Shown: in pieces, positions 4,538 to 17,752 of the stretch | Layout of the letters: each line of letters starts with the position of its first letter | Numbering within the stretch: the first letter of the stretch is position 1 | Assembly: GCA_009692205.1 (NCBI GenBank) | Contig: SHZR01000001.1 | Location: forward strand, 1-64,000 | Direction: 5' to 3' | DNA: 64,000 nucleotides | From: Gemmatimonadota bacterium | GTDB lineage: Bacteria > Gemmatimonadota > Gemmatimonadetes > Longimicrobiales > Gaopeijiaceae | Position numbers and translations under genes: made by a program | Notes under the pieces: model-generated | Seen by the model: the letters and a program-made list of their open reading frames with translations, nothing else | The model's database searches: none | Told to the model about the DNA's origin: nothing

Positions 4538-6796
4538 CTACGCTCCGCTCAGCGCCTTCAGCACGCGCGGAGGCGACAACGGCAGATCGGTGAAGCGGAC
4601 TCCCGTGGCTCCCGCCATCGCGTTGGCCACCGCGGCGAGCGGCGGCACGATCGGGACCTCGCCCACGCCGCGCACCCCATAGGGATGCAACGGGTTCGCC
4701 ACCTCGATGAGCACGGTGTCGATCATGGGCAGGTCCGATGCGACCGGCATCCGGTAGTCGAGGAAGCCGGCGTTCTCGAGGTGGCCGGCCTCGTCGTAGA
4801 TGTACTCCTCGTTGAGGGCCCAGCCGATCCCCTGCACCGCGCCGCCCTGCATCTGACCCTCCACGTAGCTCGGATGCACCGCCTTGCCGACGTCCTGGAT
4901 CGCCGTGTAGCGAACCACGCGGCTCACGCCTGTCTCCTTGTCGACCTCGATGTCGCAGATGTTGGTAGCGAATCCGGGCCCGGCCATCGGCGCGCTGACC
5001 GCGCCCCGACCCACGATGGGTCCACCCGTCGCGGTCATCTTCGCGGCAAGCGCGCTCACCGTGAGTGGCTCCTTGTCGCTCGCGCCGTTGAGCGGGATCG
5101 CCCGCCCACGCTCCCAGGCCACGCAGCTCGGATCCACATCCCAGATCTTCGCCGCGCGAGCGCAGAGTTGGTCGCGCGCGTCCTGCGCTGCCTTGATGAC
5201 CGCCATGCCTGTCGCATAGCAGACGCGGCTTCCGCCGGTCAGGTCGTTGTAGCCGATGCTGTCGGTGTCGGCCACGGTCGGCCGTACGCGCTCGACCGGG
5301 ATCCCCAACTCCTCGGACACCATCATGGCTTGCGCGACGCGCGTGCCTCCAATGTCCGGGTTCCCGGTGACGACGGTCGCGCTGCCGTCCGCGCTCAGCG
5401 ACACCGTCGCGGTCGAGTTGAGCCCCGCGTTGAACCAGAAGCCGCACGCGACGCCCCGGCCCTGGTTCGGGCCCAGCGGCGCCTTCCAATGCGGATGAGC
5501 CTTGGTGGCCTCGAGCACCTGCTTGAGACCGATGGGACCGTACTTGGGCCCGTACGGGGCTGAGTCACCCTCCTGGGCCGCGTTCTTCAGGCGCAGGTCG
5601 ATCGGATCCATGCCCAGCTTCTGCGCGATCTCGTCGATGACCGACTCGGTCGCGAACATCGCCGCCGGAGAGCCCGGCGCCCGATACGCCGCCACCTTCG
5701 GGCGGTTCACGACGATGTCGTAGGCCTCGATCATGAAGTTCGGGATGGTGTAGGGTGCGATCACGCACATCGCCCCCGCCCCGGCCGGCGAGCCCGGGTA
5801 CGCGCCCGCCTCGTAGTAGAGCGATGCGCTCGCCGCGACTAGGGTGCCGTCCTTCTTCGCCCCAATCTTCATGCGCACCTTCGTGCCCGAAGTCGGACCG
5901 CTGGCACGGAAGACGTCGTCTCGCGACATCACCATCTTCACGGGCCGGTGGGCCTTGCGGGAGAGCACGATGGCGAGGGGCTCGAGGTACACGGGGATCT
6001 TGCCGCCGAAGCCCCCGCCGATCTCGCTGGGCACGACTTTCACTTTCGCGGCATCGATGCCGAGGATGCCGGCCGAGGCGTCGCGCACGATGAAGTGCCC
6101 CTGCGTCGTCGTCCAGACGAGGACCTGCCCATCCTCACCGTAGCGTGCGACGCATGCGTGCGGCTCGATGTACCCTTGGTGGACCATGGGCGTGGTGAAC
6201 GTCCGCTCGACGATCAGGTCGGCCGCCGCGAAGCCAGCCTCGAGGTCGCCGCGCTTGAGCTCCATGCGCAGCGCCACGTTGGTGTGCTTCGGGGCGTCGG
6301 CCAGCGGCTTTCCCTTCGTGACCAGGTCGTCGTGCAGGATCGTGGCGCCGGGCGCGAGGGCCTGGTCGACCGTCATCACCGGCTTCAGCACCTCATAGAC
6401 GACGACAATCTTCTCGGCGGCCTCACGTGCGATCTCGGGGGACGTCGCCGCGACCGCCGCCACCGCGTGACCCTCGTAGAGCGCCTTGTCGTGAGCCAGG
6501 GCGTTGTCGCCCATGGGCCCGAGCTCCATCGCGGCCTCGCCCAACGAGAGCTTCGCGTTCGTCTTCGGGATGTCCTTCCCGGTGATCACCGCCTTCACGC
6601 CCGGCGTGGCCTCTGCCGCCGACGTGTCGATCGAAACGATGCGGGCGTGCGCGTGCGGGCTCCGCAGCACGTGGCCGTGGAGCATGCCCGGGAGAGTGAA
6701 GTCCGCACCGTAGTTGGCACGCCCGGTGACCTTGTCCAGACCGTCGTGGCGGATCGGCCGCGTGCCGATGTACTCGAAGGTTCGCTCCGCGCTCAT
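4538..6796 (-). CDS. Xanthine dehydrogenase family, molybdopterin-binding subunit
   Basis: 752 residues, full length for the Mo subunit of the xanthine oxidase family. Recognisable parts are the N-terminal a/b hammerhead domain (about 15-130), the pterin-contact motif IGGGFGGK at 259-266, and GVGE at 710-713, whose Glu713 corresponds to the catalytic base. These enzymes hydroxylate purines, aldehydes or aromatic heterocycles with water as oxygen donor. The start ATG overlaps the stop of the 2Fe-2S subunit (ATGA), giving the order FAD, 2Fe-2S, Mo, MoaD-like. Substrate cannot be inferred; a CO dehydrogenase is unlikely because the AYxCSFR loop is not seen. Confidence 0.92.
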   Translation of the reverse strand: MSAERTFEYIGTRPIRHDGLDKVTGRANYGADFTLPGMLHGHVLRSPHAHARIVSIDTSAAEATPGVKAVITGKDIPKTNAKLSLGEAAMELGPMGDNALAHDKALYEGHAVAAVAATSPEIAREAAEKIVVVYEVLKPVMTVDQALAPGATILHDDLVTKGKPLADAPKHTNVALRMELKRGDLEAGFAAADLIVERTFTTPMVHQGYIEPHACVARYGEDGQVLVWTTTQGHFIVRDASAGILGIDAAKVKVVPSEIGGGFGGKIPVYLEPLAIVLSRKAHRPVKMVMSRDDVFRASGPTSGTKVRMKIGAKKDGTLVAASASLYYEAGAYPGSPAGAGAMCVIAPYTIPNFMIEAYDIVVNRPKVAAYRAPGSPAAMFATESVIDEIAQKLGMDPIDLRLKNAAQEGDSAPYGPKYGPIGLKQVLEATKAHPHWKAPLGPNQGRGVACGFWFNAGLNSTATVSLSADGSATVVTGNPDIGGTRVAQAMMVSEELGIPVERVRPTVADTDSIGYNDLTGGSRVCYATGMAVIKAAQDARDQLCARAAKIWDVDPSCVAWERGRAIPLNGASDKEPLTVSALAAKMTATGGPIVGRGAVSAPMAGPGFATNICDIEVDKETGVSRVVRYTAIQDVGKAVHPSYVEGQMQGGAVQGIGWALNEEYIYDEAGHLENAGFLDYRMPVASDLPMIDTVLIEVANPLHPYGVRGVGEVPIVPPLAAVANAMAGATGVRFTDLPLSPPRVLKALSGA

Positions 6797-7287
6797 GCCC
6801 TCACCTCGCTGGTCTCGTTTCGCATGACTTCGGCCGCGTCCATCACGGCCCGCACGATCTTATCGTAGCCCGTGCAACGACACAGGTTACCCGCCAACCA
6901 AAAGCGAACCTCCTGCTCCGTCGGATTCGTGTTCCGATCGAGCAGCGACTTGGCCGCCACGACAAGGCCCGGTGTGCATATCCCGCATTGCAGGGCCGCC
7001 TGCTCGAGAAACGCCTGCTGCACGGGATGAAGTGCGTCGCCAACCGCGACGCCCTCCACGGTGAGCACCTCCCGATCGATCGCTTCGGCGGCGAGCACCA
7101 AGCAGGACGGGACGAGTCGGCCCTCCAGCAGCACCGAGCAGGAGCCACAGTCGCCCGTGCCACACCCTTCCTTCGTGCCCGTGAGCCCGAGTCGGTTGCG
7201 GAGCGCATCGAGGAGGGTCTCGGCGGGCTCGCAGAGGAACTCGGTGGGCTCGCCGTTGACGGTCGTGCGTACGTGTATCGTCGACAC
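6793..7287 (-). CDS. Xanthine dehydrogenase family, (2Fe-2S) small subunit
   Basis: 164 residues with both iron-sulfur domains of the family. The plant-ferredoxin type cluster uses Cys42, 47, 50 and 62 (GCGTGDCGSC...C), and the helical domain uses Cys101, 104, 136 and 138 (QCGIC and LCRC). It passes electrons from the Mo centre to the FAD subunit. The GTG start at 7287 has an AGGA Shine-Dalgarno 8 nt upstream; the stop overlaps the Mo-subunit start. It is cytoplasmic, since there is no Tat signal, unlike some periplasmic aldehyde oxidoreductases. Confidence 0.93.
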   Translation of the reverse strand: MSTIHVRTTVNGEPTEFLCEPAETLLDALRNRLGLTGTKEGCGTGDCGSCSVLLEGRLVPSCLVLAAEAIDREVLTVEGVAVGDALHPVQQAFLEQAALQCGICTPGLVVAAKSLLDRNTNPTEQEVRFWLAGNLCRCTGYDKIVRAVMDAAEVMRNETSEVRA

Positions 7288-7311
7288 TGATCTCTTCCTG
7301 GTGGTGGCGTT

Positions 7312-8181
7312 CTAGTGGCTGGCGCGGGCGCGCGCGGCGGCGATCGACGCCGCGCGACGGGTGAGCACGCCCACGACCGTTCTCCGGTAGGCGGCCGTGC
7401 CGCGTTTGTCGCCGATCGACCTGGCGGCGGCGCTGGCGGCCTCGCCCGCGCGCACCAGAGCCGCGTCGTCCAGCTTGGTCCCGATGAGCGCCTCCGCGGC
7501 CGCGGGCACGAGCAGCGCCGTCGGCGCGACGGCGGCGATGGCGACGCGAGCCGCCGTGCACGTCCCGCCCTTGTCCAACGTCACGCTCACCGCAGCGCCG
7601 GCGGCCGCGATGTCCATCTCGGATCGCGGTATGAGCCGCAGGTAGGCGTCCCCGGTCCCAGCTGCCGGACGAGGAACCCACAGGGCCACGAGCACCTCGC
7701 CCGGTGCAAGCACCGTCTTGTGGGGCCCGGTCGTGAAGCCGTCTACATCGACGGTGCGCTCACCCTGGGGCCCCGCGATCACGGCGCGCGCCCGATTCAC
7801 GATGAGCGGGCACGTCGTGTCGGCCGCAGGTGACCCGTTGCAGAGATTCCCCCCCACGCTCCCCCGACCCTGGATCTGCGTCGAGCCCAACAGGCCCACC
7901 GCCTCGACGAGCCCCGGCCAGAGACGACGGGCTTCCCCATGCTCGCAGACCTCGGCGGCCGACGTCGCCGCGCCGAGCCGCATGCCCACTTCGTCCAGGG
8001 TGATTCCTACCAGGCCGGGAATTCGCTTCAAGTCGACGAACGCGGAAGGGCGGCGCAGGCCCACTCGGTATTGGACGAGCAGGTCGGTTCCGCCCGCCAG
8101 CGGCGTCGCCTGCGGATCGGCCTGCATCAGTCGAACCGCGTCGGCGACCGTGGTCGGCGCTTCGTAGCGTTGGGTCAGCAT
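7312..8181 (-). CDS. Xanthine dehydrogenase family, FAD-binding subunit
   Basis: 289 residues from the ATG at 8181, chosen because family members begin close to the FEYxxP-type segment (here RYEAPTTV); the frame is open ten codons further upstream. FAD contacts are AGGTDLL at 29-35 and SVGGNLCNGSPAADT at 108-122, followed by the C-terminal CO dehydrogenase flavoprotein domain. It delivers electrons to the external acceptor, usually NAD+ or a quinone-linked carrier. First gene of the four-gene Mo hydroxylase operon, 24 bp before the 2Fe-2S gene. Confidence 0.92.
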   Translation of the reverse strand: MLTQRYEAPTTVADAVRLMQADPQATPLAGGTDLLVQYRVGLRRPSAFVDLKRIPGLVGITLDEVGMRLGAATSAAEVCEHGEARRLWPGLVEAVGLLGSTQIQGRGSVGGNLCNGSPAADTTCPLIVNRARAVIAGPQGERTVDVDGFTTGPHKTVLAPGEVLVALWVPRPAAGTGDAYLRLIPRSEMDIAAAGAAVSVTLDKGGTCTAARVAIAAVAPTALLVPAAAEALIGTKLDDAALVRAGEAASAAARSIGDKRGTAAYRRTVVGVLTRRAASIAAARARASH

Positions 8182-8243
8182 GGCGTCGTTTCCATTCTCG
8201 GGAGATGGCAACCCCCGCGGGGGTCGCGCTGACGCCCCGCGAT

Positions 8244-8843
8244 TCAGGGCGTGAGCGTTGCGGAAAACTCGATGCGAATCTGCGGTCGCACGCGCATCAT
8301 CCCGAGCATGACCACCGGCGGCTCCACGCCGTAGGTCGTCATATCGAGCGGCAGCCCGCCTTCGATCCGGACACTCGACCCCGACGGTGTCAGGGTGATG
8401 GGCAGGCTGACCTCTCGGGTGGCATCGAGAATGGTGAGCGTACCCGTCGCGACGACGCCCTGGCCACTCGCCTGGTAGCTCTGGAGTCGGAAAGTGATCT
8501 CCGGGAACTGCGTCGCCCTCATCGCCTCCAGGAGATGCTGCCTCATCTCGTCCTCAGGACAGACGAAGTCGTTCAGCCGAACCGTGAGCGTGGCCGCCTG
8601 GACTCCGTCGGCGAGACCCCGCACCGGGGTAGCCGAGCCCGGGGTGATCTGGGCGGTGCCGGGCACCGTACACGTCCAGCCTCGGATGGTCGAGTTGCCC
8701 GACACCGTGAATGCTACGCTCGACTGCTGTGCGGCCACTGCGTGCGGCTGCGCGAGAGACAGGCCGACCATGCCGGCCGTCAGCATCCGCCCAAGACCCG
8801 CCCCAGAAGCCATCTGCATCACTCGCATGCGTACCGTCCTCAT
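8244..8843 (-). CDS. YceI-like periplasmic protein
   Basis: 199 residues with a signal peptide (hydrophobic core about 18-32, ending AVAAQ). The mature part has the YceI lipocalin-like signature: S-V-A-F-T-V-S-G-N-S near the start, a central segment on spread and rank of strand pairs (EITFRLQSY), then GTLTILDATREVSLPI. YceI proteins bind polyisoprenoid-like lipids; some act in stress or quinone-linked electron transfer. It is coupled by an ATGA overlap to the Tat-exported hydroxyacid oxidase upstream, so both probably work in the same compartment. No direct link between them is established. Confidence 0.75.
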   Translation of the reverse strand: MRTVRMRVMQMASGAGLGRMLTAGMVGLSLAQPHAVAAQQSSVAFTVSGNSTIRGWTCTVPGTAQITPGSATPVRGLADGVQAATLTVRLNDFVCPEDEMRQHLLEAMRATQFPEITFRLQSYQASGQGVVATGTLTILDATREVSLPITLTPSGSSVRIEGGLPLDMTTYGVEPPVVMLGMMRVRPQIRIEFSATLTP

Positions 8844-10267
8844 AGCCCGAAGCCGAACTGGTTATGCCGCGTCATGATGGGACCGTGCCCTTCCACCACG
8901 AAGCGAGACGTGATCTCGGCGAGCGAGTTGGTCCGCGTCTGCCCCATGACGATCCTGAGCTCGGCCAAGATCATTTCGATGACCTTGTCGACCCCGTCCT
9001 CGCCGAACGCGCCGAGGCCCCACACATAGGGGCGACCGATTCCAACCGCGTCTGCGCCCAGAGCGAGAGCCTTGAAGACATCGCCGCCGCGACGCACGCC
9101 GCTGTCGATCATTACGGGCACCCGCCCCCGGACCGCGGCGACCACTTCGGGCAACGAGTCGATCGTCGCCCACATGCTGTTCTCGGCCCGTCCACCGTGG
9201 TTCGACACGTAGATGATGTCGGCGCCGTGCTCGATCGCCTGCTCCGCGTCCTCGGCGGTGACGATGCCCTTCACGGCGAGGTTCATGTCGCTCGCGTCCT
9301 TGAGGCGCGACACGTAGTCCCACGTGTAGGGGGGACGCTCGCCCGCCGGCCCCTCCAGCCCGCGAGCCATCGGCCTCTGGTAGCCCTGTTGATGGTTGTG
9401 GCAGTTCTGGCAGAGCGGCCCACTCGTGCCCTCGCCGACGACCGAGCGGCGCGCCAGCTCCCGGTTGCTGCCGCCGAGGAGGTCCACGGTCCACACGAGC
9501 GTCGGGCAGCCCGCTGCCGCCACGCGGTCGATCACACGCTGATTCCGGTTCCAGTCGAGATTGGAATAGAGCTGGAACCAGTGCGGCTCGCCCCGCGCCT
9601 CGGCGATCTCCTCGTACGACATGGAGCTGACGTTCGACTGGATCTGCAGGATGCCACGGCGCCGAGCCGCCCGGCCTGCGCCGGCTTCCCCCTGCGTGTG
9701 GTACGCCTGGAGGGCCGCGACGGGGCAGAGAAACAAGGGTGCATTGAAGCGCTGGCCGAGAAGCTCGATCGACATGTCCGGGGCGGTCGGCGGCTCGTCG
9801 CTGAGCCGACGAGGGCGAAGCGTCAAGCGCTGGTAGCCCTCCCTGTTCGCCACGCGCGTCTCGTAGTCGTCGACGCCCATGTGCAGGTAGTCCCAGTGCT
9901 GGGCCAGGTTGTTCTCGTGGGCCACGCGCTCCATGTCCCACACATTGACCGCGTCGTCGGGCGACCCGATGAGGCTGCCCGTCAGCTGCTCTTCCTGGGC
10001 CTGCTGAGGAGGGATCTCCTGCGGGAACGCCGGGGCCGAGGGAGGCTCGACGAGCGTCGCCGGCGGAATGACCGGCGCGCCGCAACCGACGCATGGTACG
10101 GGACCCGTCCTGGGGGGCGCCGACTCGCCCGCGAGAGGTTCGAGCCAGCGCGAGGGCACCGCGGCATAGGCCAAGGCCGCCAGCGGGCTAGCTGCCAGGA
10201 ACTTGAAGAAGAGCCGCCGACTCGCCCCCTGATCAGGGACGTTCGCGTCTGAACTGGATCGAGTCAT
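8840..10267 (-). CDS. Tat-exported FMN alpha-hydroxyacid oxidase with a CxxCH motif
   Basis: 475 residues from the ATG at 10267 (the frame is open to 10297). A Tat signal is clear: SRRLFFKFLAA followed by a hydrophobic stretch. The body is an FMN alpha-hydroxyacid oxidase/dehydrogenase barrel: catalytic His and Arg in SNHGGR (about 357-360), the FMN-binding Lys in AVKGI, and the C-terminal DSGVRRGGD and GIGRP motifs. The family oxidises lactate, glycolate or related acids. Unusually, a CQNCH motif, the pattern for covalent haem c, sits in the variable loop at residues 286-290 (9398-9412), and a second cysteine pair (PCVGCG) lies near the mature N-terminus. The stop overlaps the YceI start. 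Export fits electron transfer to a respiratory acceptor. Confidence 0.85.
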   Translation of the reverse strand: MTRSSSDANVPDQGASRRLFFKFLAASPLAALAYAAVPSRWLEPLAGESAPPRTGPVPCVGCGAPVIPPATLVEPPSAPAFPQEIPPQQAQEEQLTGSLIGSPDDAVNVWDMERVAHENNLAQHWDYLHMGVDDYETRVANREGYQRLTLRPRRLSDEPPTAPDMSIELLGQRFNAPLFLCPVAALQAYHTQGEAGAGRAARRRGILQIQSNVSSMSYEEIAEARGEPHWFQLYSNLDWNRNQRVIDRVAAAGCPTLVWTVDLLGGSNRELARRSVVGEGTSGPLCQNCHNHQQGYQRPMARGLEGPAGERPPYTWDYVSRLKDASDMNLAVKGIVTAEDAEQAIEHGADIIYVSNHGGRAENSMWATIDSLPEVVAAVRGRVPVMIDSGVRRGGDVFKALALGADAVGIGRPYVWGLGAFGEDGVDKVIEMILAELRIVMGQTRTNSLAEITSRFVVEGHGPIMTRHNQFGFGL

Positions 10268-13402: not shown

Positions 13403-14140
13403 ATGCGACGATTCCTGATCGGGCTGCTTACCTTGGCCGCCGCCGGATGTGGCGGCTCGGAGGAGGCGGCGGATATGCCGCCCCAGGCCCAGCCCGCGAG
13501 CACGCCCGCCCCAGCGCCGAGGCCACCCGCCTTTCCCGCGGCGGATCAGTTCCGCCTGGGTGACGCGGTCTCGCTCCGCCAAACGGCTGGGGGCTCGGCC
13601 ATCGCGTGCAACAAGCTGCACTTCGGGGACGCCGTGGTCGCAGTCGTCCAGAGGTACGCGCACGCGGGCCGCGGAGCGCTCGCCCTCCGGTGCCTGGCCG
13701 ACGGTTGGGCCACGCCTTCGGCGCCGACGCCGGCGGATCTCCAGGCCGTCGGGGCGACGCTCCAGGGCGGGCTAGCGCCGGAGTACGAGGGGATCGTGAT
13801 GCAGCCGGACGGCTCGCTGTCGTTCGTCGCGCTCGACCTTCCCGGGCGGGCCTCGGACATGTCTTGGGCGGGTCGCTGGGCTGCGTACGTCTCGATTCAG
13901 AACGCTCGGGACGCAGCCGGTGGGCAGAGAGAGGCGGACGCCATCGGCATCGTGTACGACATCCCCGGCCGGTTCGCTATCCAGCAGTACTTGCTGGGCA
14001 CGTGCAGACTATCCGCCGCGGGTGCCGCCGACCAGTCGGCGTTCTCCGTCCCGACCTGGGCCAGCGACGGGAGGAGCCTCGTATTCCACGGTGACGCGGC
14101 GCGCTGCAGCTTCGGAGAGGTGGAAGCCCACCCCGAATGA
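13403..14140 (+). CDS. Putative lipoprotein of unknown function
   Basis: 245 residues beginning MRRFLIGLLTLAAAGCGG, a textbook lipoprotein signal with lipobox AAGC. A proline/alanine-rich linker (about 28-45) leads into a globular domain with no family that I recognise. It has several possible beta-strand stretches (GIVMQPDGSLSFVALDLPG; WASDGRSLVFHGD), reminiscent of WD40/TolB-type repeats but too few to call. A GGAG Shine-Dalgarno lies 8 nt before the ATG. Its stop overlaps the MmgE/PrpD start (ATGA), so it heads that four-gene operon. Confidence 0.65.
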   Translation: MRRFLIGLLTLAAAGCGGSEEAADMPPQAQPASTPAPAPRPPAFPAADQFRLGDAVSLRQTAGGSAIACNKLHFGDAVVAVVQRYAHAGRGALALRCLADGWATPSAPTPADLQAVGATLQGGLAPEYEGIVMQPDGSLSFVALDLPGRASDMSWAGRWAAYVSIQNARDAAGGQREADAIGIVYDIPGRFAIQQYLLGTCRLSAAGAADQSAFSVPTWASDGRSLVFHGDAARCSFGEVEAHPE

Positions 14141-15543
14141 TCCCATCCACCGCCACGGGTGCGGTCGTCGAGTTCATCTGCCGCTCGCGACTGCGCGACT
14201 TCCCGGCCGAGGCGCTCGAGATCGCCAAGCGCTGCATCATCGACGGCCTCGGCGTGATGCTCGCGGGCTCCACTCAGGACGCCGGCCGTATCCTCAGCGA
14301 GCACGTGCGGGGCTCCGATCCGCGCACCGAGGCCACGGTGTTCGGACCCGGGCCGTTCCGGACGGGCTCTGCCTCCGCCGCGCTCGTCAACGGCACGGCC
14401 GGCCACGCCCTCGACTGGGACGACACGCAGCTCGCGACGAGCGCCGACCGCATCTTCGGCCTGCTCACGCACCCGACGATTCCGCCGCTCGTCGCCGCGA
14501 TGGCACTCGGCGAGCCACGCCGCGTCTCGGGCGCGCGGTTCCTCGAGGCCTTTCTCACCGGCTTCGAAGTGGAATGCAAGATCGCGGAGGCGATTCACCC
14601 GGATCACTACAAGAAGGGCTTCCATTCCTCGGGCACGGTGGGCACGTTCGGCGCGGGAGTGGCCGCCGCGAAGCTACTCGGGCTCGACGCCACGGCGACC
14701 GCGCACATGCTGGCGATCGCCGCGAGTTCGGCCTCCGGCATTCGCGTGAGCTTCGGCAGCATGACGAAGCCGTTGCACGTCGGCCGCGCGGCCCAGAACG
14801 GTGTGACGGCCGCCGAGCTCGCGGGTCGCGGGCTCACCGGCGGCAAGGACGCACTCGATCCCCCGTGGGGCTTCTTCCAGACGTTCAGCCACGGCTCGGG
14901 CTTCGACCCGGAGCGGATCATCCCGGTGCTTGGGCAGCCTCACACGATCGTGTCGCCCGGAGTGTCGATCAAACCCTATCCGTGCGGCGTGCTCGGCCAC
15001 CCGACCATGGATGCGATGCGCCGGCTCGTGATCGCGCACGACGTCAAACCCGAGCACATCAAGGCCATCCGTGTACGGGCGGGCTCGAACATCCTCAACC
15101 CGCTGCGCTACGCGATCGCGACCAACGAGCTCGAGGCGAAGTTCTGCCCTGCGTTCATGGTGAGCGCCATCGCGTTGCGCCGCAAAGCCGGCATCCACGA
15201 GTTCAACGACGAGTTCGTGCAGAGCGCGCCCGTGCAAGCACTCATGCGTAAGGTCGAGCGCGTACTGGATCCGGTGATCGAGGCCAAGGGGTGGGAGAAG
15301 ATCAGAAGCACCGTAGAAGTCGACCTGCTCGACGGCCGTACGCTCGTCGAGCACGCCGACGAGAGGTACCGCGGGGGTCCTGACCTGCCGTTTACCCGCG
15401 ACGAGCTCTACGACAAGTGGAGCGACTGCGCCTCGCTCGTCCTTGGGAAGGCGGCCGTCGACGAAGCGTTCGAGCTCGTCGACGGGATCGAGGCGCTCCC
15501 CGACATCACGACACTCACGCGAGTGCTCGGCTCACCCGCATGA
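14137..15543 (+). CDS. MmgE/PrpD family protein
   Basis: 468 residues matching the MmgE/PrpD fold throughout: an N-terminal helical domain with GLGVMLAGS and NGTAGHALDWDDT (about 82-94), and a C-terminal domain with KPYPCGVLGHPTMDA (about 284-298). Known members are 2-methylcitrate dehydratase, cis-aconitate decarboxylase and iminodisuccinate epimerase; the paralogue group cannot be fixed here. It is coupled on both sides (ATGA overlaps) to a lipoprotein and to a MatC-like transporter, followed by a 2-hydroxyacid dehydrogenase. This suggests uptake and catabolism of a di- or tricarboxylate or a related hydroxyacid. Confidence 0.88.
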   Translation: MIPSTATGAVVEFICRSRLRDFPAEALEIAKRCIIDGLGVMLAGSTQDAGRILSEHVRGSDPRTEATVFGPGPFRTGSASAALVNGTAGHALDWDDTQLATSADRIFGLLTHPTIPPLVAAMALGEPRRVSGARFLEAFLTGFEVECKIAEAIHPDHYKKGFHSSGTVGTFGAGVAAAKLLGLDATATAHMLAIAASSASGIRVSFGSMTKPLHVGRAAQNGVTAAELAGRGLTGGKDALDPPWGFFQTFSHGSGFDPERIIPVLGQPHTIVSPGVSIKPYPCGVLGHPTMDAMRRLVIAHDVKPEHIKAIRVRAGSNILNPLRYAIATNELEAKFCPAFMVSAIALRRKAGIHEFNDEFVQSAPVQALMRKVERVLDPVIEAKGWEKIRSTVEVDLLDGRTLVEHADERYRGGPDLPFTRDELYDKWSDCASLVLGKAAVDEAFELVDGIEALPDITTLTRVLGSPA

Positions 15544-16787
15544 GCCTAGCCTGGATCTCCGTCGCGGCGCTCGTCCTGGCCGTCACGCTGAGCATCACCA
15601 GCACCCTCAACGTCGGCGTGGTATCCCTCGCGCTCGCGCTCATCGTCGGCGTCGGCCTGGGCGACATGTCGCCGGCGCAGGTCCTCGAAGGCTTCCCGAC
15701 GGGCCTCTTCGTGACGCTGGTCGGCGTCACGTTGTTGTTCGCCATCGCGGATGTGAACGGCACGCTCGCGCGCTTTACCGAGCGTGCCGTGCGCCTATGT
15801 CGCGGCCACGCTGGCCTGCTGCCCATCATGTTCTTCCTGATCGGTTTCGTCCTCTCGACGATCGGCGCCGGCGCGACGCCCGCGAGCGCGCTGCTCGCGC
15901 CCCCGGCGATGGCCGTCGCTGCGGCCGCTGGGGTGCCGCCGCTGCTCATGGTCATCATGACGGGCAACGGCGCGCTCGCCGGGACGCTTTCTCCGTTCGC
16001 ACCGACGGGCATCGTGGCACACGGCGTCATGGAGCGCATCGGCCTCGGCGGGGTCGAGTGGCAAACGTTCGCCTACAACGCGTTCGCGCATACGCTCGTC
16101 GGCTTCGGCGGATTCTTCCTGCTGGGTGGGTGGCGACTATTTCGTCCCGACGCCGCGCGCGGAGACGCGGCTCAGCTCGGTCTCGCGAGCCAGCCGATGG
16201 AGACGCGTCACTGGCTCACGGCCGCGGGCATCGCGGCGCTCATCGTCGGCGTGGCCGGGTTCCGTCAGGACGTCGGCATGGTAGCGCTCATCGTCGCGAC
16301 CGCGCTGATTCTGTTGCGCACGGTCGAGGAATCGAAGGCGATCGCGCGCATGCCGTGGGGCGTGATTCTCATGGTCACCGGCGTCACCGTGCTCGTCGCG
16401 CTGTTGCAGGAGACGCAGGGACTCGCGCTGATCACCTCGGGCATCGCGAATCTCTCGACGCCCACGACCATCGAACCCGTGGTCGGGTTCGGGGTCGGGC
16501 TCGTGTCGGTTTACAGCAGCACCTCGGGCGTGGTGCTACCGGCGTTCTTGCCGATGGCGCCCGAGCTGGCCGCACGGCTCGGCGGCCTCGATCCCCTGCC
16601 CATCGCCTGGTCGATGAACGTGGCGGCGAGCCTCGTCGACCTCTCCTCGCTCTCGACCGTCGGCGCCCTGTACATCGCGGGGGCCGCGTTGGGGACCGAC
16701 AGCCGGAAACTCTTCAACGGGCTGCTCGCGTGGGGCCTGTCGATGTGCGTCGTGGGTGCGCTTCTCTGCTATTTGCTGTTCGGCTGA
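15540..16787 (+). CDS. MatC-like dicarboxylate/SLC13-type permease
   Basis: 415 residues from the ATG that overlaps the previous stop. About eleven hydrophobic segments are visible. The first 150 residues match the MatC N-terminal domain (NVGVVSLALALIVGVGLG, EGFPTGLFVTLVGVTLLF, STIGAGATPAS), known from malonate/dicarboxylate carriers. The second half repeats the architecture, as in ion-transporter superfamily proteins. It is predicted to be an inner-membrane carrier for a small dicarboxylate that feeds the flanking MmgE/PrpD protein and 2-hydroxyacid dehydrogenase. Substrate is inference. Confidence 0.82.
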   Translation: MSLAWISVAALVLAVTLSITSTLNVGVVSLALALIVGVGLGDMSPAQVLEGFPTGLFVTLVGVTLLFAIADVNGTLARFTERAVRLCRGHAGLLPIMFFLIGFVLSTIGAGATPASALLAPPAMAVAAAAGVPPLLMVIMTGNGALAGTLSPFAPTGIVAHGVMERIGLGGVEWQTFAYNAFAHTLVGFGGFFLLGGWRLFRPDAARGDAAQLGLASQPMETRHWLTAAGIAALIVGVAGFRQDVGMVALIVATALILLRTVEESKAIARMPWGVILMVTGVTVLVALLQETQGLALITSGIANLSTPTTIEPVVGFGVGLVSVYSSTSGVVLPAFLPMAPELAARLGGLDPLPIAWSMNVAASLVDLSSLSTVGALYIAGAALGTDSRKLFNGLLAWGLSMCVVGALLCYLLFG

Positions 16788-16792
16788 GGGGG

Positions 16793-17752
16793 ATGCGAGT
16801 CGCCATCCTCGACGACCTACACGACGTGTGGGCAAGCACCGACGACGTGCGCCGCCTACGCGAGCGCGCAGCGGTCGAAGTCTTCACGGCGCCGTTCGGC
16901 TCTCCTGCCGTTCTGCGCGGGTTCGACGCGCTGATCGCGAACAGGGAGCGCACACGCTTCACGCGCGAGCTCCTCGAGCAGCTCGCCGACGTGCGGCTGA
17001 TCGTGCAGACCGGCAATCACGCGGCTCACATCGACCTCGCGGCCGCGCGCGAGTGCGGGATCGTCGTCGCGCAGGCGTCGGGTGGTTACTCGATTGGCGC
17101 TGCCGAGCTCGCGATCGGGCTCGCGCTCGCGCTCATGCGCCGGATTCCCGAACAGGACGCGGCCGTCCGCCGCGGCGACTGGCAAACGCCCACGACGCCC
17201 GTGCTCCATGGGAAGACGCTCGGCGTGATCGGCTTTGGACGCGTGGGCAGCCATGTTGCACGCATCGGCCATGCGTTCGGCATGCGGGTGCTCGGCTGGA
17301 GCCCGCGGCTCACCGACGCCGGGGCGGCCGTCGCAGGCGCCGAGCGGTGCGATCTCGACGCGCTGCTCGCCCAAGCGGACGTCGTCACGATCCACGCCTC
17401 GCTCACGCCCACGTCGCGCGGGTTGCTCGACGCGCGCCGCCTCGCGCTCATGAAGCCGAGCGCTTACCTCGTCAATACCGCGCGCGGCCCGATCGTGGAC
17501 GAGAAGGCGCTACTCACCGCGCTCACGGAGCGGCGCATCGCGGGTGCCGGCCTCGACGTGTTCGACGTCGAGCCGTTGCCCGCCGGCCATCGCTTCACCG
17601 GGCTCGACAACGTGGTGCTCACGCCGCACCTGGGTTGGCCAACCGACGACGGCTATCGGCGCTTCGCGGCGGCGGCGTGCGAGGTCCTGTTCGCCCATCT
17701 CGAAGGACGGCCGGTGCCGACGTTCGAAGAGCACGACCATCTACGACCCTAG
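16793..17752 (+). CDS. D-2-hydroxyacid dehydrogenase (NAD-dependent)
   Basis: 319 residues; ATG 16793 has a GAGGGGG Shine-Dalgarno that overlaps the transporter stop. The protein has the full D-isomer-specific 2-hydroxyacid dehydrogenase layout: Rossmann motif GFGRVG (about 143-148), catalytic Arg in NTARGPIVDE, Glu in DVFDVEPLP and His in TPHLGW. It interconverts a 2-keto and a 2-hydroxy acid with NAD(P)H. It is last in the lipoprotein / MmgE-PrpD / transporter operon. The stop TAG is within CTAG, which also encodes the stop of the convergent hydrolase. Confidence 0.9.
   Translation: MRVAILDDLHDVWASTDDVRRLRERAAVEVFTAPFGSPAVLRGFDALIANRERTRFTRELLEQLADVRLIVQTGNHAAHIDLAAARECGIVVAQASGGYSIGAAELAIGLALALMRRIPEQDAAVRRGDWQTPTTPVLHGKTLGVIGFGRVGSHVARIGHAFGMRVLGWSPRLTDAGAAVAGAERCDLDALLAQADVVTIHASLTPTSRGLLDARRLALMKPSAYLVNTARGPIVDEKALLTALTERRIAGAGLDVFDVEPLPAGHRFTGLDNVVLTPHLGWPTDDGYRRFAAAACEVLFAHLEGRPVPTFEEHDHLRP

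Follow-up and report, generated by a model that had tools for sequence, protein, structure and literature searches.

A reverse-strand gene in a Gemmatimonadota contig (SHZR01000001.1, positions 1 to 64,000; this whole stretch of 64,000 nucleotides is called the window below) raises the question of whether a flavoenzyme can carry a c-type haem on a loop of its own catalytic domain. Within the open reading frame 10267..8840, the reverse strand at 9398-9412 reads TGC CAG AAC TGC CAC, translated as CQNCH. A sequence-only reading had pointed to this motif in a Tat-exported FMN hydroxyacid oxidase, a description confirmed by the sequence itself, by a twin-arginine stretch and by a full FMN_dh domain in the encoded protein, P0001 (Table 1). 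The bare DNA pattern for CxxCH carries no significance (1 match in the window versus 1.94 expected from shuffles), which left conservation as the yardstick for the motif.

Table 1. Features of the dehydrogenase locus, with coordinates in the window
Feature	Coordinates	Strand	Basis
Tat-type FMN-dependent 2-hydroxyacid dehydrogenase, P0001, 475 aa + stop	8840..10267	-	ORF, Pfam, fold match
Twin-arginine motif SRRLFFK, aa 16-22, ahead of a hydrophobic stretch	10202..10222	-	sequence; kept in relatives
CVGCG, aa 59-63; sub-clade feature, outside the general site	10079..10093	-	35/36 sub-clade
His124, candidate sixth (distal) haem ligand	9896..9898	-	102/102 clade, 3/49 outside
Tyr127, aligned with active-site Tyr24 of glycolate oxidase	9887..9889	-	1gox alignment; Y in 98/102 clade, 42/49 outside
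Arg154, clade-specific	9806..9808	-	101/102 clade vs 1/49 outside
Trp239, clade-specific	9551..9553	-	98/102 clade vs 0/49 outside
Loop 4 (gating loop), about aa 264-312	9332..9478	-	1gox alignment; pLDDT below that of the barrel
CQNCH, aa 286-290; proposed haem c attachment site with His290 as proposed proximal ligand	9398..9412	-	102/102 clade, 0/49 others
Met300, frequent but not universal, C-terminal to the motif	9368..9370	-	85/102 clade
Lys333, family catalytic/FMN-site lysine	9269..9271	-	101/102 clade, 49/49 outside
His357 (catalytic base) and Arg360 (substrate-binding arginine)	9188..9199	-	each 100/102 clade, 49/49 outside
YceI-family lipocalin gene, possible quinone-carrying partner	8244..8843	-	PF04264 E 2.3e-15

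The dehydrogenase and its gating loop

P0001 matches FMN_dh (PF01070) over residues 122-457 with an E value of 2.6e-101 and 339.6 bits (Pfam cut-off 24.9). It has Tyr127, Tyr234, Asp262, Arg269, Lys333, His357 and Arg360, which are largely invariant across the family alignment and whose individual roles we take to be those of the PF01070 family. Arg269 is substituted in 10 of 102 rows of the clade described below, while the remaining catalytic residues are kept. By domain and catalytic residues, P0001 belongs to the FMN-dependent 2-hydroxyacid dehydrogenase/oxidase family, with L-2-hydroxyacids as the putative substrate class. All ten NCBIfam models listed for P0001 score below their own cut-offs; among them, the L-lactate oxidase model reaches 218.8 bits (cut-off 645.5) and pre-mycofactocin synthase MftD (TIGR03966, actino_HemFlav), of the same FMN family, 171.5 bits, far below its cut-off of 470.85. 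Apart from FMN_dh, Pfam returns only weaker barrel families, with no cytochrome domain and no cytochrome b5-like domain (PF00173) on the chain. The earlier suggestion of a fused flavocytochrome c did not hold up: the motif lies in the enzyme's own loop, and a domain fusion with a cytochrome is ruled out by the Pfam results.

Profile alignment to spinach glycolate oxidase (1gox) places CxxCH on residues 181-185, Tyr127 on Tyr24 and His124 on Val21, in a numbering that presumes the family Asp to be residue 157, one below the printed index. A structure model built from 39 sequences predicted the barrel well and left residues 264-288 under pLDDT 50, whereas a model from 95 sequences (fragment aa 92-475) reached a mean pLDDT of 91.7 with ten-residue blocks of the loop at 68 and 76, which is moderate. 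In the latter model CxxCH closes a short predicted helix (aa 284-290), and His124 lies within another (aa 122-128). Glycolate oxidases come out as its closest structural matches, both with VIA-align (Z 47.4, rmsd 2.0, 341 residues aligned to 5zbm_A) and with Foldseek. No cytochrome is among the fold matches listed, which is uninformative since barrel matches fill the list. Going by alignment and predicted secondary structure, the grounds on which burial far from the flavin (a refuting condition of the sequence-only reading) was judged, CxxCH is placed in the active-site gating loop.

Conservation of the motif and its candidate partners

A contig scan for relatives returned 33, in metagenome-assembled genomes titled Gemmatimonadota, Acidobacteriota and, in one case (L031), Acidimicrobiia. 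One of the six scan patterns was CQNCHNHQ, which favors motif holders; whole-protein searches are free of that bias. In the window's phylum these matched 60 of 249 genomes at E <= 1e-60, and in the phylum of G249, the genome of locus L012, titled Vicinamibacterales, 48 of 297 at E <= 1e-40. The remaining listed matches of both searches were added to the sample together with five plasmid-borne homologues, so that genomes of Gemmatimonadota and Acidobacteriota were sampled directly and other phyla through one plasmid search. Window copies (L001, L065) were dropped, as were loci that were incomplete or unrelated (L002, L066, L067, L124, L125, L186), and merging identical sequences took 182 rows to 152 unique ones, 151 of them with a readable loop. 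Left out of the 151 were L035, whose contig ends before the loop, and L061, which gave no match in the count script and, read separately, carries CNSCH. Near-identical sequences were retained in the 151 and thinned to 62 + 34 rows for the tree.

In the first alignment (32 sequences including the window, with the truncated L034 and L035 excluded), both loop cysteines, His290 and His292 are invariant. Among the 151 distinct homologues, CxxCH occurs in loop 4 of 102/102 members of one clade and 0/49 sequences outside it, with both cysteines and the histidine invariant throughout the clade. This settles, by alignment, the possibility raised earlier that close homologues might lack the motif. The two residues between the cysteines take 39 different pairs among the 102 members, the loop differs in length, and third codon bases vary (TGC/TGT 89/13 and 77/25, CAC/CAT 85/17). 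Because the motif is kept while these positions vary, it is more than a chance occurrence. That it is incidental and binds nothing is compatible with the pattern being expected about twice per window by DNA alone, but conservation in all 102 members, in a loop whose other positions and length are variable, rules this out in practice and leaves the idea with virtually no likelihood.

Ranked by similarity to the window protein, the two groups are fully separate: the weakest complete CxxCH member scores 244 bits, the strongest member without CxxCH 238. In a tree of 96 rows, computed with the loop columns removed, the CxxCH rows form one side of a single branch (SH-aLRT 98) and a single change of state suffices. 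If the root lies outside the clade, the motif would have been gained once and never lost in this sample. Both CxxCH and His124 are absent from L095, the closest row beyond the clade. Overall, the clade is common in Gemmatimonadota and present in Acidobacteriota. The Acidimicrobiia title of L031 is probably a wrong label; its genome (G250) falls in the same phylum as G249 and its protein branches with Acidobacteriota. The plasmid search added one member from Alphaproteobacteria, on Methylobacterium bullatum plasmid record NZ_LR743510.1 (CTDCH; 52.8% identity to a query derived from L122). As this organism has a species name, it may be the easiest of the clade to work with.

Other positions follow the same division. 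The most informative is His124, three residues before the active-site Tyr127, which the sequence-only reading had missed. In an earlier alignment 25 clade rows were gapped at this position, while the later one gives histidine in all 102; the three outsiders that also have it are without CxxCH. Asn268 is a further marker (100/102 in the clade versus 2/49 outside). Met300 was rejected as a universal sixth ligand, being present in just 85/102.

Two cysteines and two histidines, neither more nor fewer, are invariant and clade-specific, and this speaks for a structural zinc or other metal site in which Cys286, Cys289 and His290 and/or His124 pin the gating loop to the first helix, with no haem and no new electron path. 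Such a site could already acquire its metal in the cytoplasm, making it easier to reconcile with Tat export than haem attachment is. Set against this, a bis-His c-haem requires just such a pairing of CxxCH with a distant His, and the N-terminal CxxCG that could complete a Cys4 site is missing from most of the clade. Binding of one zinc by an adjacent Cys and His, here Cys289 and His290, is unusual. We consider a zinc site made of these four residues unlikely, and it is still the main rival to haem. A redox-active or locking disulfide, in which the CxxC of the lid stiffens the gating loop or serves as an electron relay from FMN in the periplasm, appears improbable: it would accord with the classical spacing of redox disulfides, with a loop lying over the active site and with a periplasmic location, but it leaves His290 and His124, both present in 102/102, unexplained.

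The sequence-only reading had also noted a second cysteine pair near the mature N-terminus. The pair is there, as CVGCG, but as a general partner of the loop it fails, since it is confined to the window's sub-clade. In that sub-clade 35/36 members have an N-terminal CxxCG, while in the rest of the clade 2/66 have any N-terminal CxxC, neither of them confirmed as equivalent to the CVGCG site. The first alignment had N-terminal cysteines in 31 of its 32 sequences. A natural test of separability is offered by L023 (8001-9302), where the N-terminal CxxCG is deleted and CxxCH is kept. CPxCG is a typical metal knuckle, and the joint occurrence of both pairs in 35/36 of the sub-clade would fit a Cys4 metal center (zinc ribbon, rubredoxin-like iron or Fe-S) shared between N-terminus and loop. 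The 66 members of the remaining clade, with only those two N-terminal CxxC cases and yet a retained loop CxxCH, argue against it, as does L023. The sub-clade restriction refutes a Cys4 site as a general explanation and makes this reading very improbable. Judged from the alignments, His124 is the stronger partner of the CxxCH site than the N-terminal pair, and a candidate sixth ligand.

Export, maturation and a proposed built-in haem

The twin-arginine stretch of P0001 reads ASRRLFFKFLAASPLAALAYAA (aa 15-36). A regular expression finds such a signal in 96/102 clade rows and it was recognized by eye in L055, which together are all 97 rows with a complete N-terminus; the five remaining rows lack one. 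The same loose expression also matches 23/49 outsiders, and for this reason Tat-type signals alone do not define the clade. Outside the window's sub-clade, a cysteine after the Tat stretch is common among several of the loci L040-L063 (AGC, for example), and a loose Tat + lipobox expression matches 17/66 members; some of these may be membrane-anchored lipoproteins.

Genes for CcmE and CcmF lie side by side in the window's genome. A PF01578 match is found in 249/249 Gemmatimonadota genomes and in 23/23 further genomes given, so co-occurrence with Ccm is non-discriminating and only permits haem attachment. The CcmE (L186, 2933-3505, reverse strand, contig C55 of the window's genome) ends in ...TKCGSRY, with a Cys at the position that is a His in the classical HxxxY motif for haem binding. 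It is adjoined by a small ORF that has zinc-ribbon matches.

Several points speak against haem, among them the moderate pLDDT of the loop, the presence of His124 in three outsiders without CxxCH, and the lack of a cytochrome fold. The folding of Tat substrates before export would also be unusual for a Ccm substrate. This last concern, already voiced in the sequence-only reading, has a partial answer. In purified form, the bacterial haem ligase CcsBA, which belongs to a system other than Ccm, is reported to attach haem to an 11-residue CXXCH peptide, with both thiols and the His required but not the neighboring helix (PMC8112865). By analogy, a flexible loop of a folded protein would be a plausible substrate for haem attachment, with the reservation that Ccm differs from CcsBA.

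Taken together, P0001 is probably a periplasmic FMN-dependent L-2-hydroxyacid dehydrogenase that is a flavocytochrome c, with a covalent c-haem on the gating loop serving as built-in electron acceptor. In the sequence of events that we propose, FMN would be inserted and the barrel folded in the cytoplasm before Tat export, after which Ccm would attach haem to the still flexible CxxCH loop. His290 would be the proximal ligand and His124, one helical turn before Tyr127, the likely sixth ligand, an arrangement that would hold the haem between loop 4 and the first helix, next to the active site. Substrate would reduce FMN; single electrons would then move from FMN to the haem and onwards to a periplasmic acceptor, either a soluble cytochrome c or, plausibly in the window's sub-clade, the quinone of the adjacent YceI protein; no H2O2 would be made. 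We lean only slightly towards a more specific arrangement, in which the lid carries the haem c, loop 4 and helix 1 grip it through two His ligands, and Ccm loads it once the folded flavoenzyme has been exported by Tat. Support in hand consists of the motif, its place, its clade-wide invariance, the invariant His124, the catalytic residues, the Tat-type signals, the Ccm genes and the YceI synteny; from these we infer haem attachment, ligands, maturation order, electron path and substrate class. The core idea of the earlier reading, a c-haem CxxCH as a site that passes electrons on, is thus partly supported, with haem binding putative.

A close parallel is flavocytochrome b2, the yeast L-lactate dehydrogenase (EC 1.1.2.3; PDB matches 1fcb and 1kbi), which has the same FMN_dh barrel and uses a built-in haem as electron outlet, the working mode proposed here for P0001. 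Its haem is described as non-covalent and held in a separate cytochrome b5-like domain, PF00173 (PMC8491902). P0001 differs in having CxxCH in the catalytic loop in place of that domain and in its Tat export. It would work like flavocytochrome b2 by this analogy but, lacking the cytochrome b5-like domain, is not a member of that group. Glycolate oxidase, L-lactate oxidase and mandelate oxidase/dehydrogenase (PF01070), which have the fold (Z 47.4 to glycolate oxidase) and catalytic residues in common with P0001, are described as using O2 or quinone (PMC8491902). PF01070 members without CxxCH (motif 0/49) are mostly also without His124 (3/49). Flavocytochromes c such as sulfide dehydrogenase and fumarate reductase likewise combine a flavin with haem c in the periplasm, but their flavin is FAD, their folds differ, and their haems sit in cytochrome subunits or domains, whereas P0001 would combine an FMN-binding TIM barrel with a single CxxCH inside that catalytic domain. 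Among the open-licence papers searched, we found no description of a CxxCH-bearing FMN hydroxyacid dehydrogenase.

If the proposal is correct, it would represent a third way to build a flavocytochrome, one that needs no fused or recruited cytochrome domain, and a minimal haem site lacking any cytochrome fold, on the loop of an unrelated TIM barrel. It would also mean that the cytochrome c system can mature a Tat substrate whose barrel is already folded, at one of its loops, making Ccm action on folded Tat substrates directly testable with one protein. A whole clade of FMN hydroxyacid dehydrogenases in Gemmatimonadota and Acidobacteriota would call for re-annotation, and direct-electron-transfer biosensors could make use of a periplasmic hydroxyacid dehydrogenase that has its electron outlet built into one and the same chain.

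Gene neighborhood

The YceI-family gene lies directly downstream of the dehydrogenase gene and overlaps its stop by ATGA. It adjoins the dehydrogenase at 28/32 sub-clade loci, namely 28/31 of L003-L033 plus the same-genus genome G132, whose 19.9-kb region (L118) is without it; L034 and L035 end too early to be scored and are outside the 32. No YceI gene was found in 18 regions from the rest of the clade (0/18) or in the Methylobacterium region. Two cysteines of the lipocalin (about 58 and 95 in the window's numbering) are apparently invariant in the aligned partners of the 28 loci and perhaps form a disulfide. Ubiquinone-8 or other isoprenoids have been found inside the barrel of YceI lipocalins, which are described as commonly linked to a membrane cytochrome b561 (PMC9113575). 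In the window's sub-clade, a path from FMN through haem to a YceI-bound quinone is plausible and attractive.

A conserved separate cytochrome subunit in the operon was not seen among the neighbors listed for many loci. The Methylobacterium bullatum member has a cytochrome c gene directly upstream, which we did not count as support; the gene stretch around it is presumably common alphaproteobacterial synteny. In the window, a three-subunit molybdenum hydroxylase of the xanthine dehydrogenase / 4-hydroxybenzoyl-CoA reductase type is encoded just downstream on the same strand (4538-8211); it reaches no NCBIfam equivalog cut-off and its genes were not found at the relatives' loci. An organic-acid cluster at 14137-17752 encodes an MmgE/PrpD protein, a MatC/CitMHS-type carrier and a D-isomer-specific 2-hydroxyacid dehydrogenase.
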